64,000 bases of DNA from an uncultured bacterium (lineage in GTDB: Bacteria; Verrucomicrobiota; Kiritimatiellia; RFP12; UBA1067). The translations under genes and the position numbers were made by a program. Numbering within the stretch: position 1 is the first letter of the stretch; each line of letters begins with the position of its first letter. This document shows, piece by piece, positions 28,968 to 35,547 of the stretch. The notes under the pieces were generated by a model, which was not told the DNA's origin, searched no databases, and worked only from the letters and a program-made list of their open reading frames with translations. The stretch covers positions 1 to 64,000 of the forward strand of contig CADCAK010000012.1 of NCBI GenBank assembly GCA_902799385.1, read 5' to 3'.

Positions 28968-30167
28968 CTATCCGTTCCGGCGCCTCTTCAGTGCGACGAG
29001 GGTTTCAAAACGGGCGGTGCGCGGAAACATGTTGAACCAGCGGACGGACTCTACCGCATAGGAACTCGAAAGCGTCTTGAGGTCGCGCATAAGCGTCGCG
29101 GGATCACACGAGACGTAGAGGATGCGCGGCGCGGCAGACGCGGCAAGCCACTTCGGGACATTCGGCTCAAGCCCGCCACGCGGCGGATCTACGATCACCG
29201 TTGTCCTCGGCCCAATCTTTATGCGGCCGACATTGCGCCCAACCTGCTCCGAGAAGAACCTTGCGTCTATCGCCTTCTGCGCGGCAGCATTTCGCTTCGC
29301 AAACTCTATCGCCTGACGCCCGGACTCTATGCCTGTCAGCCGCGGCGGCTTGCAGCAAAGCCCCAGCACGCCGACGCCGCAGTAGAGGTCGAGGACCTCC
29401 GGAGCTTCCGCCGCACCCTTCTGGTATTCGGCAACTACCGCTTTCGCAAGTTCCTCGCCGACATCGGTGTTCACCTGGTAGAACCCATCCGCAGGAACTT
29501 CAAAGTCGAGTCCGCAAGTCGTTTCCTTCAGAACTAAGTCCTTCGGCGCGTCGCCTATCCACCACTTGACGCCGCTCTTCTTCGTCCAGCGGACGGTGAC
29601 GCTTCCCTTGCGCTCGGTGTCCTTGCGCACCTGGATCGGGCCCGTCGTAAGCAGCGTCGTGACGGCGCGGCGTATTTCGCCGAGGCTCGAGTTGATCTCG
29701 GGACGCGCAAGCGGATCGTCGGCGACATCGACAATTTCGTGCGACGGCTCGGTGCGGTAGCCGATGCGCCAGACATTGCCGTATTTCGCAAAGTGGTAGA
29801 CGACCTTGTTGCGATAGTTGAACTCAGAGCCGCCCTTCGCGGAGACGAATTCTGGCACTTCGATGCGGGCACGCTCGAGGAATTCCATAAGCTGGCCCTC
29901 CTTCGCCTTTAGCTCACCGTCATAGGAGAGATTGGCGTAGACCATCCCGGGCACGACGCGCCCTGCCTCGCATTCGACGCGATCGGGAGATTTCTCAACG
30001 ACCTCGACAAGACGCGCCTTGACGAAATGCTTCTTCTCCTCGACGATCTCCGCCTTGACCTGCTCGCCGGCCCATGCGCCGGGAACGAAAACGACACGTC
30101 CGTCGCCAAGGCGCCCGAGCCCGTCGCCGCCGTAGACGTTCTTTGCAATGTAGACAGTTGAAGTCAT
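28968..30167 (-). CDS. TrmA/RlmD-family RNA (uracil-5-)-methyltransferase without the Fe-S cysteines
   Basis: 399 residues: N-terminal TRAM domain ([20 protein letters not shown]), then the SAM-dependent methyltransferase core with [21 protein letters not shown] and the catalytic Cys region [13 protein letters not shown]. Most RlmD-type enzymes carry an Fe-S cluster near residue 70-90 (C-x-n-C-x2-C). Here the region reads [20 protein letters not shown], with only one Cys, so the cluster is absent. The target (tRNA U54 or a 23S rRNA site) cannot be assigned. The ATG at 30167 overlaps the nfo stop by 4 nt. Confidence 0.82.
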
Positions 30168-31054
30168 GTATCCTTCCTCAGTTTCCTTATGAGCGCAATC
30201 TCGTCGCGGTATCCCTGCAGGTCGCACGGCGTTTCAAGGTAGAAAGGCAGGTCCCTAAGCTTCGGATGGTTCACGACGCGCATGAGCGCGTCAAGCCCGA
30301 TCTTCCCCTTGCCGATCTTCTCGTGGCGGTCCTTGTGTGCGCCGAGGGCGTTCATCGAGTCGTTGAGGTGAATCGCCTTTAGCCTGTCAAGCCCTACGAT
30401 TCGGTCAAACTCGGCGATTACGCCGTCAAGGTCGTTCACTATGTCGTAGCCGCCGTCCCAGACGTGGCACGTGTCGAGGCAGACGCCTATAGGGGGAACG
30501 GGGAATGGGGAATGGGGAACGGGGAACAGCCGGGACTCCGTACGGTCGATAATCGCGCGGATCTCGGCAAAATCCCTGCCGACCTCGCTGCCCTTCCCCG
30601 ACATGGTTTCGAGAAGGATTGTCGTGGAGGGAAGCTTGCCGCCGTGCGAATCGATCCAGCGAAGGAGTATGCGCGAGAGCATTCCAGATATGAGGTTGAC
30701 CCCCTCTTCGGCGCCCTGCCCGACATGGCTGCCTGGATGAAAGTTGTACATCGCGCCCGGAGTATGTTCAAGGCGATCCAAGTCATCTGCCATTACCTCC
30801 TCGGCAAACTCTCGGACACGCAGCTCGGCGCCCGCCGCGTTCAGCGTGTATGGCGCGTGGGCGAGAATCGGGCCGATGCCGTTCGCAGCGGCAAAGTCGA
30901 GGAACGCCGCGACATCGCCCCTGTCTATAGGCTTCGCCGCGCCGCCGCGCGGGTTGCGCGTGAAGAACTGGAACACGTTCGCGCCGATCGACACGGCCGT
31001 CTGCCCCATGGCGAGATAGCCCCCCGATGCGCTGAGATGACATCCTATTTTCAT
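30164..31054 (-). CDS. nfo: Deoxyribonuclease IV (AP endonuclease)
   Basis: Cleaves 5' of abasic sites in base-excision repair. 296 residues. The zinc-site motifs are present: [61 protein letters not shown] and FYLETP. A Pro/Phe-rich insert ([13 protein letters not shown]) in front of GVCLDTCH comes from a heptamer repeat and keeps the frame. Start is the ATG at 31054, 8 nt after a TATACT box, which matches the family N-terminus [12 protein letters not shown]. Confidence 0.93.
30492..30527. repeat. In-frame ggggaay heptamer array inside nfo
   Basis: Five consecutive 7-bp units (ggggaac or ggggaat). The same heptamer family recurs in gltB (60010) and lysS (63841). Confidence 0.85.
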
Positions 31055-31062
31055 TGACGGGA

Positions 31063-31071
31063 AGTATAGCA
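31063..31071 (-). promoter_or_regulatory. Extended -10 promoter of nfo
   Basis: TGCTATACT on the minus strand, 8 nt before the nfo ATG; near-leaderless. Confidence 0.55.
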
Positions 31072-31094
31072 TAATCGCGCCGCCTGCACCACAG

Positions 31095-32942
31095 TCACTT
31101 CAATCCCAGAATGCGCGAGATCGCACCCGTCACCTTCGACATCGCGCTTTCGAAATCGCCCTTCCTGGCAGGGACTGTCGCGCTCTCCACGACGGCGTCG
31201 CCCTGCTTCAACGAAACCTCTACGGCGTTCCCCGCGCGGCGGACCGATATCGCAAACTCGACGACTTCCTCTGGCGGCGGCTCGTCCGGCTGCGGCTCCG
31301 GCGGCTTTTCGTCGGTTTGCGGCTGCGGCTCGTTCATCTCGTCGAGAATCGTCCTCGCGAGAAGCTCTATCTTGCGCCGGACGCTCGGGAAAAGCGCCTT
31401 GTGCTGTTCGGCGGCGTTCGCGGGACGCTTCGCCTCGTCGGGCCAGAGCGTGTCGAGCCGCGACGCCTCCCACGACGCCTCGGTCGCCTGGGTGAGCAGT
31501 TCCACGACGGTCTTCAAATCTGGCGTGCGCGACCAGAAAGAGTCCTTGCGCCGCTTCGCCTCGACGAGGACCTGCGCGTGGCTCCTGTCCACGATGGCGT
31601 TCTGCGCAGCGATCGCGCTGCGAGCGATGTCGAACGCGGCGGCCACCTCGGCGTCGGCGCGGCGGTCTGCCTCTTCCATGAGCGGCCTACCCTGCGGCGC
31701 GTCCGCGAGTGGCTTGAGGGCCGCGAGCGAACGCCACTCCCTCACCGACTTCGCGTAGTCGCTTCTCGCCGCCACGTCATCCGCGACTTCCGCAGGCGGG
31801 AACCAGGTGCCGTCCGCGAGCGCGGGCCACGTGCCGTCGGCCTGGCGCTTCGCCGCAGCCGCGCGCGCCTCGCGCCACTTTGGAAGGACTTCCCTTCTCA
31901 CCTTCGCGTCGGCTGCCTTCCCGATACGCTCGCAGCCGAGGCGCGAGGAAAGGTACTGACGCAGTTCGCCGCGCTCGGGGAGCGGCGCGTCGCCGCACGT
32001 CCCGTCGAGGGCGCACGCAAGGAGCGCTGCGGAGTAGCGGCTTGCGAATATCCTCTCGCTCTCCGAGGCCTTCACGTGCATTTGCGGCGACTCGACGATC
32101 TCCCTAAGTATCGAATCGACGTCGACCTCGACCTTGGTCGTTTCCATCTTCTTTTCGAGGCGGTCGAGGGTGCGGCGCTCTACGGCGGGGCCGATGGACT
32201 TCTCGAACGTCCCAGCGAATACGCCCCACGCCTTTGACGGATCGTCCGCCTTTTCGCGGCGCTCCTTCACGTTTTCCTTGAGACGCGCCTTTAGGTCTGC
32301 GGCGAGCATCGACGGCGCGGCGGTGTCGCACCTCGCGCGCATCAGATACTCCGCCTGCCTGCGCTGCTCGCGGCGGGCGTCCTTTATGACCGGCTCCACC
32401 ATGCGCTCGCTTATGAACTGGCGGTTTTCGGCAAACACCGCCGTCTTCTGCCCGTCGAGGATGCGCTTCTGCATCTGCTCGCGAAGTTCGTCGTCACTTT
32501 TTGCATCGAACTCGGCCTCTGTAGGACGAGTCGCAGCGACAATGGTCCTGGCCTGTGCCTCGACTGCGGCCTTGCGCTCGGCGGCGAACGCGGACGCGAA
32601 GTGCCTGCCTGCGATTTCGCCGGCACTTCCGGCGTCGAGCTCCGCCGCGCCCGGCGCGATGCCAAGCCGTTCGGCGATGTCGCGCGACCTCGCCGCGAAC
32701 TGCGCGCGCAGCTCGTCGGCAAAGACACCGCGGCAAAGCGCCTCGGCCTCGTCCGGCTTCTCGAACTTCTTTGGGTCGGCAAGCATCGCCCTCTCAAGCG
32801 CCCCCGGCGCTGGCCCCTTGTCGAGCAGTTCTCCGCGCACGCGGGAAAGCGAGATGTCGCGAGCGCCGTCGCGCGCCGTGGCGTCGAACTCGGCGTTGCC
32901 CGCCGAGAGCGTCGCGGCCAAAAGCAATGCAAGCATGTTCAT
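31095..32942 (-). CDS. Secreted Ala/Arg/Glu-rich helical protein, unknown function
   Basis: 615 residues with a short signal peptide ([17 protein letters not shown]). The rest is strongly helical and charged, rich in Ala, Arg and Glu, with only a few cysteines. A Pro/Glu-rich linker ([20 protein letters not shown]) precedes a final ~60-residue beta/alpha segment ending SRILGLK. The ATG at 32942 overlaps the upstream stop by 4 nt. It is the last gene of the nadE, channel-like, single-span, helical unit, so I infer it works with that membrane pair in the periplasm. No family recognised. Confidence 0.6.
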
Positions 32943-33637
32943 GGCAGTACCTCCGCGCCGGTCGCCTCGGCCACGAGCCTGAGTGACCTTGCCTTCAGTG
33001 CGTCCGCAAGCGCGCTTGGGTCGGCGATGTCGCCGAGCGCGGACGGGTTTTCGATCCACTGGCGCTGGAGGCGCGCAGCAAGAGCTCGCTGCACGCCCCG
33101 CGCGTCGAGGCGGACTTCCTCGACGCTGCGCGCGATCTCTTCGCCGAGCCATGCCCTTTCGCCGTCGGCAAGCGAGTCTTCGGCGAGCTTCGCCTCGTCG
33201 AGGACGGCGGACTTCCACGCGGCGGCGAGCGCGGCGGGGTCGCGGTAGTCGGCGAACGCGGCGGCGGAACCGGACGCAAAAGCGGCCTTCGCCGCAGGCG
33301 CGAGCTCTATGCGTCCGCCCTTCACGTGCTCGTCGGCGTCGAACGAGCGGCGGCCGTCGGTGCCCTGGGTCATGAGCGCGTTAAGGCCATATTTCACGCG
33401 ATGGTCCTCGGCGACCTTGTCAAGCGCGAGGATCAGCTTCTGCCTGTTCACCTCGATGATTTCCTCGGCGCGCTCCTTGCGCGACGTCTCGACGAAGATG
33501 AAGTAGGCGATCATAAAGACCATGAGAAGCGCGAACACGACCTGGAGAAGAAGCCCTTGCAGGTCTTCGGTCGTGGCCCGGCGGGAGGCGTCGCCACCAA
33601 GGAGCCGTTTCAGCGCAGCGCGGTCGGATTCCGTCAT
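32939..33637 (-). CDS. Single-span membrane protein, possible MotB/ExbD-position partner
   Basis: 232 residues. A short cytoplasmic N-terminus is followed by one membrane helix (about residues 28-48, LLLQVVFALLMVFMIAYFIF) and a periplasmic Ala-rich helical domain. Layout and gene order next to a MotA/ExbB-like gene suggest the stator or ExbD-type partner. However, I see neither the usual helix-embedded Asp of MotB/ExbD nor an OmpA peptidoglycan-binding domain, so it may be a different kind of partner. It overlaps the next gene by 4 nt and follows the previous one by 9 nt. Confidence 0.55.
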   Translation of the reverse strand: MTESDRAALKRLLGGDASRRATTEDLQGLLLQVVFALLMVFMIAYFIFVETSRKERAEEIIEVNRQKLILALDKVAEDHRVKYGLNALMTQGTDGRRSFDADEHVKGGRIELAPAAKAAFASGSAAAFADYRDPAALAAAWKSAVLDEAKLAEDSLADGERAWLGEEIARSVEEVRLDARGVQRALAARLQRQWIENPSALGDIADPSALADALKARSLRLVAEATGAEVLP

Positions 33638-33646
33638 GGCGCGTCC

Positions 33647-34483
33647 TCACCCCCTGAGCGCCGCGGCGACCCGCGCAAGGCGCGCCTCCGTCTCGGCGCG
33701 GGCTTCGTCGGCGGCCTTTGCGCGGCGCTCGAGCGCGTCCATCTCGCGCTTGAAGAACTCGACGTACTCCCTCTGCCGCGCGTTGAAGTCGCGCTCGAAC
33801 GCGGCCTCGCGCTCCTCGAACTTCCGTTCATACGCCGCCTCGCGCCGCTCGAAGGCCGCCGCGAACTCGGCCTCGCGCCGCTCGAACGCGTCGGACGCCG
33901 CGCCGAGGCGCACGACGAGCCTGTCCACGGCAGCCGCGAGGTCGCCGTCGTCGGTCTCGGCGAGCCCGGTCTCCTCAAGGAGCCGCGTGAAATACGGCCT
34001 AACGAGCGGACGGTCGACGAGGAACACCCAGACTACTGCGGTCAAGGTCGAGAAGAGCGCGGTGTGCAGGCACTGCATGAGGTCTGCCATCGTAACCGTG
34101 TCAAGCTTGAAGTAGCCGATTACTATGATTCCCCAAAGCGTGCCAAGAAGCCCGAGCGCGACGTTCAGCTGGTCGGAGCCCCGGAAGAACGGGAAGTCAC
34201 CCGCGCGGCAGCGGCGGCCGCGAACCATGCGAAGGAGCGAAAGCGACATGCAGAGGAACCCGAGCGCCGGGATGAACGTCGTGACCGCCGAATAGTCCAC
34301 GACCGCCCAGTCGAGCCACGGGACAAACCCGGGAGCCTTGGCCGCGAACGCCGACGAGTCGCCGCCGGCGGCGCTGAACGACGACCACCAGTTGAATATG
34401 GCTACAACATTGTTTGCGAAGGCAAGCGCAAAGAAGACTGTCGCACAGATGCAGGCAGAAAGAAGGAAAATAACCTTTTTCAT
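33647..34483 (-). CDS. MotA/TolQ/ExbB-like membrane protein with coiled-coil tail
   Basis: 278 residues. Hydrophobic segments lie at about 4-28, 57-80, 103-122 and 131-152. The third and fourth (LGLLGTLWGIIVIGYFKLDT ... LHTALFSTLTAVVWVFLVD) match the channel helices of the MotA/TolQ/ExbB family. A cytoplasmic tail (about 185-278) holds repeated FERRE-type units of about 7-11 residues (FERREAEFAAAFERREAAYE), predicted to coil. The ATG overlaps the nadE stop by 4 nt. An energy-coupling role through proton flow is inferred from the family only. Confidence 0.65.
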   Translation of the reverse strand: MKKVIFLLSACICATVFFALAFANNVVAIFNWWSSFSAAGGDSSAFAAKAPGFVPWLDWAVVDYSAVTTFIPALGFLCMSLSLLRMVRGRRCRAGDFPFFRGSDQLNVALGLLGTLWGIIVIGYFKLDTVTMADLMQCLHTALFSTLTAVVWVFLVDRPLVRPYFTRLLEETGLAETDDGDLAAAVDRLVVRLGAASDAFERREAEFAAAFERREAAYERKFEEREAAFERDFNARQREYVEFFKREMDALERRAKAADEARAETEARLARVAAALRG

Positions 34484-35547
34484 AGTATCCCCGTTGGCAT
34501 GTCTGACGGTATCGACCAGCTCTCCTTCGAGAAGTCGAACGAGAAGACCCTTATTCCGTCGGGCGCGCAGTTGCGCTTGAACGCCTGGGAGACAAGACGG
34601 TAGAGGAACGTGTCGAGCGTGCGGCCGATGAGGTCGAGCCCGAACGCCTTGCCGTAGCGCTTCGCGGCGGCGTCGTAGAGCGCCTTGCGGCCAAGTCCGT
34701 TCCTGCAGAAGTTCCAGATGAAGAAGTCGTGCAGCTCGTAGGGGCCGATCTTGTCCTCGGTGACCTGGCCCTTCACGAGCTCTGGGCTCACGGGCGTAGC
34801 GACGATATCAAGCAGCGCCTTCGCCGCCTTACGGGAGTTTAAAGTTGAAAGTGAAGAGCGTAAAGTTGATGTGCAACTTTTCACTTTACACTTTAAACTT
34901 TCAACTCTCTCTTCAGCCCACCACCGGCAGACCTTGCGGACGACTGTCTTCGGGACGCCGGAGTTTACGCCGAACATCGACATGTGGTCGCCGTTGTAGG
35001 TGCACCAGCCGAGCGCGATCTCCGACATGTCGCCCGTGCCGAGGACTATGCCGCCGACCATGTTCGCCTTGTCCATCAGTATCATGGTGCGCATGCGCGC
35101 CTGAGCGTTCTCGTAGGCGGCGTCGGGCGTCTTTCCGTCGTGCCCGATGTCCTTTAGGTGCTGCCGCACCGACTTCGCGATCGAAATCGTCTCCATCTTC
35201 ACCCCGAGCCCTTCGCAGAGGAGGTCGGCGTTCGTCTTCGTGCGCGTCGAGGTGCCGAAGCCGGGCATCGTGTAGGAGTGGATGCCGGAGAGGGGAAGCG
35301 AAAGCTTCTTGAAAGCGCCGACGGCGACGAGAAGCACTAGCGCGGAGTCAAGGCCCCCCGACACGCCGACAACGACGTCCTTTACGCCGATGCGCTTGAG
35401 TCGAAGCGTGAGGCCGTCAACCTGTTTTGCGTAGACCTTCGCGGGATCGCAGGGGAACGGGGCGGACGCCGCGCGCCCCTTCGGGAGCTTGGCGAGGCTG
35501 CCGAGAGTCCCGCCGCTCTTGATGTATTCCTTTAGACGCTTGTCCAT
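34480..35547 (-). CDS. nadE: NAD+ synthetase, synthetase domain only
   Basis: Amidates deamido-NAD to NAD. 355 residues. The PP-loop VGVSGGLDSALVLLVAV, then NAQARMRTMILMDKANMVGG, GTGDMSEIALGWCTYNGDHM and FGVNSGVPKT, resemble the C-terminal half of the large two-domain glutamine-dependent enzymes. The N-terminal nitrilase-type glutaminase domain is absent, so ammonia or a separate glutaminase must supply nitrogen. A Ser/Leu/Lys-rich insert (about residues 213-232) comes from an inverted repeat at 34837-34912. The ATG at 35547 lies 7 nt after a TATAAT box. Confidence 0.88.
   Translation of the reverse strand: MDKRLKEYIKSGGTLGSLAKLPKGRAASAPFPCDPAKVYAKQVDGLTLRLKRIGVKDVVVGVSGGLDSALVLLVAVGAFKKLSLPLSGIHSYTMPGFGTSTRTKTNADLLCEGLGVKMETISIAKSVRQHLKDIGHDGKTPDAAYENAQARMRTMILMDKANMVGGIVLGTGDMSEIALGWCTYNGDHMSMFGVNSGVPKTVVRKVCRWWAEERVESLKCKVKSCTSTLRSSLSTLNSRKAAKALLDIVATPVSPELVKGQVTEDKIGPYELHDFFIWNFCRNGLGRKALYDAAAKRYGKAFGLDLIGRTLDTFLYRLVSQAFKRNCAPDGIRVFSFDFSKESWSIPSDMPTGIL
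34837..34912. repeat. Inverted-arm heptamer element inside nadE
   Basis: The left arm (gtttaaagttgaaagtgaa) and right arm (ttcactttacactttaaac then tttcaac) are approximate reverse complements of 7-bp periodic sequence, so the element can fold into a hairpin. It sits in frame within nadE. Confidence 0.75.

Follow-up and report, generated by a model that had tools for sequence, protein, structure and literature searches.

The reverse strand of the window, by which we mean the whole 64,000-nucleotide stretch analysed, carries a run of three genes, here called A, B and C, preceded by nadE (Table 1). The genome is 2.7 Mb in 102 contigs and 77.5% complete, and the neighbours of A-B-C in the window are housekeeping genes. 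The tight coupling described in the first-pass annotation is borne out, with ATGA overlaps at the nadE/A and B/C junctions and a gap of 9 bases between A and B. Its linkage of the operon to nadE holds in the window and fails as a general rule: of 38 stretches compared, 7 have a nadE-like frame close to the operon, and nadE, at 8 loci, is the most frequent same-strand neighbour cluster besides A, B and C. Clustering of neighbours over the fetched loci found no recurrent fourth gene beside A-B-C, and the big opposite-strand clusters are read as shadow frames because they overlap A, B and C in position.

Table 1. Genes and residues of interest at the locus, in window coordinates.
Feature	Position	Strand	Description
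nadE	34480-35547	-	Precedes A, B and C
Gene A	33647..34483	-	Four-span MotA/TolQ/ExbB-superfamily protein, 278 aa, predicted cytoplasmic coiled-coil tail
A residues 110-115 (LGLLGT), third span	34139..34156	-	G111, L112, G114, T115 invariant in 61/61; hhalign register
A residues 138-146 (CLHTALFST), fourth span	34046..34072	-	T141, A142, S145 invariant in 61/61
A residues 181-278	33650..33943	-	Variable-length 11-residue-repeat stalk and conserved C-terminal tip; periodicity, quantised length
Gene B	32939..33637	-	Single-span partner, 232 aa; predicted long membrane-crossing helix and helical periplasmic domain
B residues 24-25 (Glu-Asp), span start	33563..33568	-	Candidate ion-carrying acid
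B Gln32, polar residue within span	33542..33544	-	Present in all B compared
Gene C	31095..32942	-	Probably exported helical protein, 615 aa; Pro/Glu-rich linker, C-terminal strand-helix domain
C residues 537-561, Pro/Glu-rich linker	31260..31334	-	Low model confidence at 540-559
C residues 562-615, small C-terminal domain	31098..31259	-	Shortened in window genus, longer in other families

Two further features near the operon concern inserted repeats. One, a palindromic repeat about 76 bases long, sits in frame within the housekeeping gene nadE (34833-34908, reverse strand) and has 19 more partial matches across the genome. Among relatives, two carry this insert at the corresponding position, another two carry different repeat-like inserts there, and a further two, both distant, have no insert. 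The repeat in nadE resembles the palindromic elements of Rickettsia. The endonuclease IV-like gene, so named by eye (30164-31072, reverse strand), contains a short in-frame low-complexity stretch of 12 residues that looks like another inserted repeat.

Protein A has hydrophobic spans at residues 4-22, 61-79, 106-124 and 138-156 by hydropathy, and both of its ends probably lie in the cytoplasm, given the four spans and the basic character of the loop that joins the second to the third. All 26 A proteins scanned match the Pfam family MotA_ExbB (PF01618) at E <= 0.1, the best at 1.2e-5; the window protein scores 17.3 bits, under the curated cut-off of 22.9, and that of a relative (genome G003) scores 26.8 bits, over it. 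When 61 A cores were aligned by hhalign with 75 ExbB-type proteins from the same bacterial family, the probability was 92.5% and P was 4.9e-7, compared with P 0.4 for the reversed-profile control. These comparisons argue for the relation to MotA, TolQ and ExbB that had first been read from the pattern of the helices. Comparison of A by sequence with solved structures gave mostly coiled-coil or chance matches, with TolQ only at E 0.21-0.75. Distant and near A families align with each other at P 8.5e-14, and N25, D63, T69, G111, L112, G114, T115, G118, G123, L135, T141, A142, S145 and L147 are invariant in the full set of 61, from which a misread frame (L093) and three fragments (L027, L056, L057) were excluded. 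The hhalign alignment places T115 and S145/T146 at threonine positions conserved in the ExbB family; the exact pairing with individual ExbB threonines is presumed from the ExbB sequence. In E. coli, Thr148 and Thr181 of ExbB and Thr145 and Thr178 of TolQ are conserved pore threonines near the partner Asp, and such threonines form a polar ring in both proteins (PMC12215075, in part).

The repetitive coiled-coil tail that had been noticed in A resolves into 11-residue units, which build the part beyond residue 181 and have a period of about 3.65. Measured from D181 to a conserved RQ-EY motif near the end of A, the stalk is 33, 44, 55, 66, 77, 88, 99, 110 or 143 residues long in 29 of 30 proteins, so that the lengths of relatives differ by whole multiples of 11; the exception (L040), at 95 residues, is off by 7. 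This count leaves out 13 A proteins that have no C-terminal anchor. A stricter choice of anchor gives 22 of 23 distinct segments, and the wider count is the one adopted. Nine of the ten distinct lengths differ from that of the window by a multiple of 11, and no other period from 3 to 15 fits more than four of the ten. On a tree of 28 B proteins, at least 12 changes of stalk length are required. In relatives belonging to other families the tails are longer and mix periods. An origin of the stalk units in a minisatellite was rejected, as Tandem Repeats Finder reported no array at positions 33600-34000 of the window, and because there is no DNA tandem array at the window stalk we infer selection for the register of the stalk rather than a young minisatellite. 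We tentatively propose that the stalk could be a rigid five-stranded coiled coil whose reach has been tuned in evolution by whole 11-residue units, a proposal that forms part of the new-class reading set out below.

Protein B crosses the membrane once, at residues 29-47 by hydropathy, in keeping with the single N-terminal helix described earlier. Its structural model, with a mean pLDDT of 84.4, is nearly all helical and consists of a long helix followed by a helical domain. An acid stands at the start of the span in all 60 B proteins counted, a set that excludes L093 and does not include the B-like frame of L174. With the rows placed by the Gln motif of the span, which none of them lacked, all 52 near proteins have their acid, Asp or Glu, at Q-7 and all 8 distant proteins have an Asp at Q-4, so that the two positions lie one helical turn apart and are not strictly the same. 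The near and distant B families align at P 1.3e-5. An acid at the start of the span is also found in TolR (Asp23; PMC12215075, in part) and in ZorB (Asp24/Asp21; PMC11890865, in part). The window B matches no Pfam, NCBIfam or PADLOC family above the cut-off, and neither OmpA nor MotB is among the Pfam matches of 26 B proteins. Kinship with ExbD was also rejected: against 71 ExbD proteins, hhalign gave P 0.074, 0.036 and 0.038 for near, distant and all B, and the reversed profiles gave 0.017, 0.44 and 0.043, values that lend no support to such a relation by sequence profile. Sub-threshold matches had raised a holin or a peptidoglycan-binding protein as candidates for B; these were set aside, the holin family appearing in only 2 of 26 relatives.

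The model of C is likewise nearly all helix (mean pLDDT 87.9), followed by the linker and a small C-terminal strand-helix domain. It agrees with the first-pass annotation on the length of 615 residues and on helicity; the secretion claimed there is probable, as judged from the type of N-terminus in the window copy and its relatives. The window copy begins with a short hydrophobic start that ends in A-x-A and has no basic residues, which makes a weak signal peptide, and relatives in other families have, by eye, ordinary ones. Hydropathy found no membrane span in C, and Pfam found neither TonB nor TolA. The window C and the relatives scanned match no Pfam or NCBIfam family above the cut-off, the window C matches no PADLOC family above it, and no Pfam family recurs in more than 3 of 25 relatives. 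An ExbD/TolR fold for the C-terminal domain, suggested by eye in longer relatives, was dropped after profile comparison (P 0.022, reversed 0.26). Compared by sequence with solved structures, both B and C gave mostly coiled-coil or chance matches. Fold searches with the models had best Foldseek E values of 0.52 for B and 0.12 for C, none of them <= 0.001, and best Z scores of 6.3 and 6.7 in a second search, blanks that do not amount to new folds. ZorB (8qyd) matched the B helix with a Z of no more than 3.4, and a match over one helix is weak evidence.

Conservation of the gene order had been named as a check in the first-pass annotation. Among 68 stretches fetched, 67 have at least one of A, B and C by profile and 57 have all three; the 68th (L099) has a weak B fragment only. 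In all 57 complete loci the order is A-B-C on one strand, and in 42 of them B and C overlap by exactly 4 bases. The 10 incomplete loci are cut by contig ends, are split or are without C. A is present in 37 of 114 genomes of the window's family. Across 345 genomes of the class, B is found in 48, A in 55 and C in 57; set side by side, the lists show A and C in every one of the 48 B-bearing genomes. Of 387 genomes sampled from the phylum, 19 have B, nine of them in one family outside the class, and the system is thus spread over several families of one class and one family beyond it. The named relatives of A are from Kiritimatiellae and related metagenome genomes, several of them from the ruminant gut (16 loci). 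A profile of C extended stepwise recovered it from 17 of the 19 stretches fetched last (E 1.3e-121 or better) and missed it in L174 and L186; at L186 the search beside A-B turned up no C, though the locus has room for it. In one genome (G055), A stands alone on one contig (L025) and B-C on another (L100), with unrelated neighbours on each; in a second (G184; L174 and L189), a B-like frame follows A, and C is on a separate contig. That both genomes keep all three genes despite a broken-up operon argues for a shared function.

The tree built from 52 B proteins agrees with the taxonomic grouping and needs 6 changes, the minimum possible. In one genus of the window's family (g3; L037, L038), B groups with the family outside the class with support of 100/99, which makes transfer between classes likely. 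At one locus (L034, genome G027), B has an in-frame TAG and C is split, which may reflect decay of the operon or assembly errors.

Our main reading, to which we give a probability of about two in three, is that A and B form a 5:2 ion-driven motor in the inner membrane, with C as its periplasmic partner, that does mechanical work in the cell envelope. Known motors of this kind combine five A-type subunits in a ring with two Asp-bearing B-type helices, and Thr/Ser residues line their ion path (PMC9389320 and PMC11890865, each in part). The sequences of A and B contain parts common to these motors, namely the positions of the polar ring and a single-span partner with an acid. We infer the stoichiometry, the ion flow, the export of C, the contact between B and C and the periplasmic output of A-B-C. 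About five A subunits would surround two B helices, and ions, H+ or Na+, would travel past the acid where the B span begins and past the ring of invariant Thr and Ser in A, causing relative movement of A and B. The five A tails would bundle into a cytoplasmic coiled-coil stalk of 11-residue repeats with a conserved tip, which may anchor A or transmit motion. On the periplasmic side, B would use its helical domain to engage the exported C, which may replace the wall-binding or force-transmitting parts of other motors. Because B is without a wall-binding domain and the exported C is its constant companion, we would assign the load or anchor to B and C, leaving the stalk as a cytoplasmic anchor or lever. 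A role as anchor or lever has also been proposed for the tail of GldL (PMC9389320, in part). The output would most likely be mechanical work in the envelope, in a layout closest to that of GldLM. Against the motor reading stand the want of a profile relation between B and ExbD, the shift in the position of the acid, the weak signal peptide of the window C, the failure to find C at L186 and neighbouring genes that give no hint of a load.

The main rival to this reading is inward signalling through the stalk, in which periplasmic B-C would sense envelope damage in the manner of Zorya and ion flow would move the A stalk to act on a cytoplasmic effector encoded elsewhere. The resemblance to ZorAB lies in the MotA/ExbB-type core, the long cytoplasmic tail of the A subunit and the single-span B with its Asp. 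In profile scans, distant A proteins match ZorA models best (PADLOC E 3.1e-8 and 1.7e-6; NCBIfam 5.9e-5), and the window A matches ZorA2 at E 0.0028 only; the long tail of A also resembles that of ZorA, which defence needs (PMC11890865, in part). We nevertheless consider such a sensor unlikely. Among the matches of the scanned A, B and C proteins, no Zorya model in PADLOC other than ZorA appears, neither ZorC, ZorD nor ZorE was seen next to A-B-C, no recurrent effector gene adjoins the operon, and the neighbours in the window are housekeeping genes. The periplasmic domain of B appears helical, whereas that of ZorB is of the wall-binding OmpA type, and here a third, probably exported protein is constant. 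No match was found for A in phages or for B in plasmids or viral contigs, and carriage of the system by phages or plasmids was rejected on these grounds.

Much less probable is a divergent Ton/Tol energiser, with A-B corresponding to ExbB/ExbD and C reaching toward an outer-membrane partner as TonB or TolA does. The relation of A to ExbB, the LGLxGT and T/S motifs of the core helices, the acid-bearing single-span partner and the combination in C of a Pro/Glu-rich linker with a small C-terminal strand-helix domain would all suit it. A, however, has no large cytoplasmic domain between its spans, B has no relation to ExbD/TolR by sequence profile, the C-terminal domain of C was equally negative in the comparison with ExbD, and the third gene encodes a spanless, probably exported protein with no match to TonB or TolA. 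The genome has, moreover, five other MotA_ExbB matches and six to ExbD, which can take on Ton/Tol functions. That A-B-C is a passive membrane scaffold descended from a motor that lost ion conduction is very improbable, as the residues relevant to conduction are among the few invariant across distant families.

Preferring the motor, we can ask which of the known ones it most resembles. It shares with GldLM/PorLM a tailed wheel subunit, a single-span partner with a large periplasmic part and additional periplasmic partners (PMC9389320, in part), but A here spans the membrane four times and carries the sequence motifs of MotA/ExbB, no Gld/Por Pfam family is among the matches of A, B and C, and no recurring type IX secretion genes adjoin the operon. 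Flagellar MotAB differs in that B here matches no MotB/OmpA family, and no neighbour gene recurs that would supply a flagellar setting. The B subunits of MotAB and Zorya both grip the cell wall through a peptidoglycan-binding domain. Among the non-flagellar 'GIT' relatives of MotAB, the A subunits carry extensions of diverse kinds and the B partners are compact (PMC12505986, in part), and those parts of PMC12505986 describe no 11-residue-repeat tail, no such B domain and no conserved exported third gene; this survey of MotAB relatives may include distant cousins of A-B-C. Among the papers listed by a literature search, none was seen to describe a system of this kind in this bacterial group, and among the matches listed none joined the bacterial group with ExbB.

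The opening impression that this is a different machine from Exb, Tol, Mot and Zorya has thus gained ground. The TonB, OmpA and flagellar domains that were not seen in the three proteins are also missing from the Pfam scans of relatives, with neither TonB in C nor OmpA or MotB in B, no ExbD domain was found, no Zorya effector is conserved as a neighbour, and the two partner proteins belong to no named family. The best reading is that the system is a new 5:2 motor lineage, laid out most like GldLM or Zorya and probably a member of neither. Whether it should count as a new class of ion-driven envelope machine, with a modular stalk of adjustable length, a load or anchor formed by an exported family whose fold has yet to be solved, and no partner of the wall-binding or ExbD type, is a more tentative matter, for which we put the chances at slightly short of even.

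Known 5:2 motors power flagella, nutrient uptake, envelope upkeep, gliding, secretion and phage defence. Another lineage, whose two partner families are unnamed and whose carriers are uncultured bacteria, many of them from animal guts, would widen this class of motors. Moreover, a stalk that changes length in steps of 11 residues while the channel stays fixed would be a natural experiment on the roles of the tails of ZorA and GldL.
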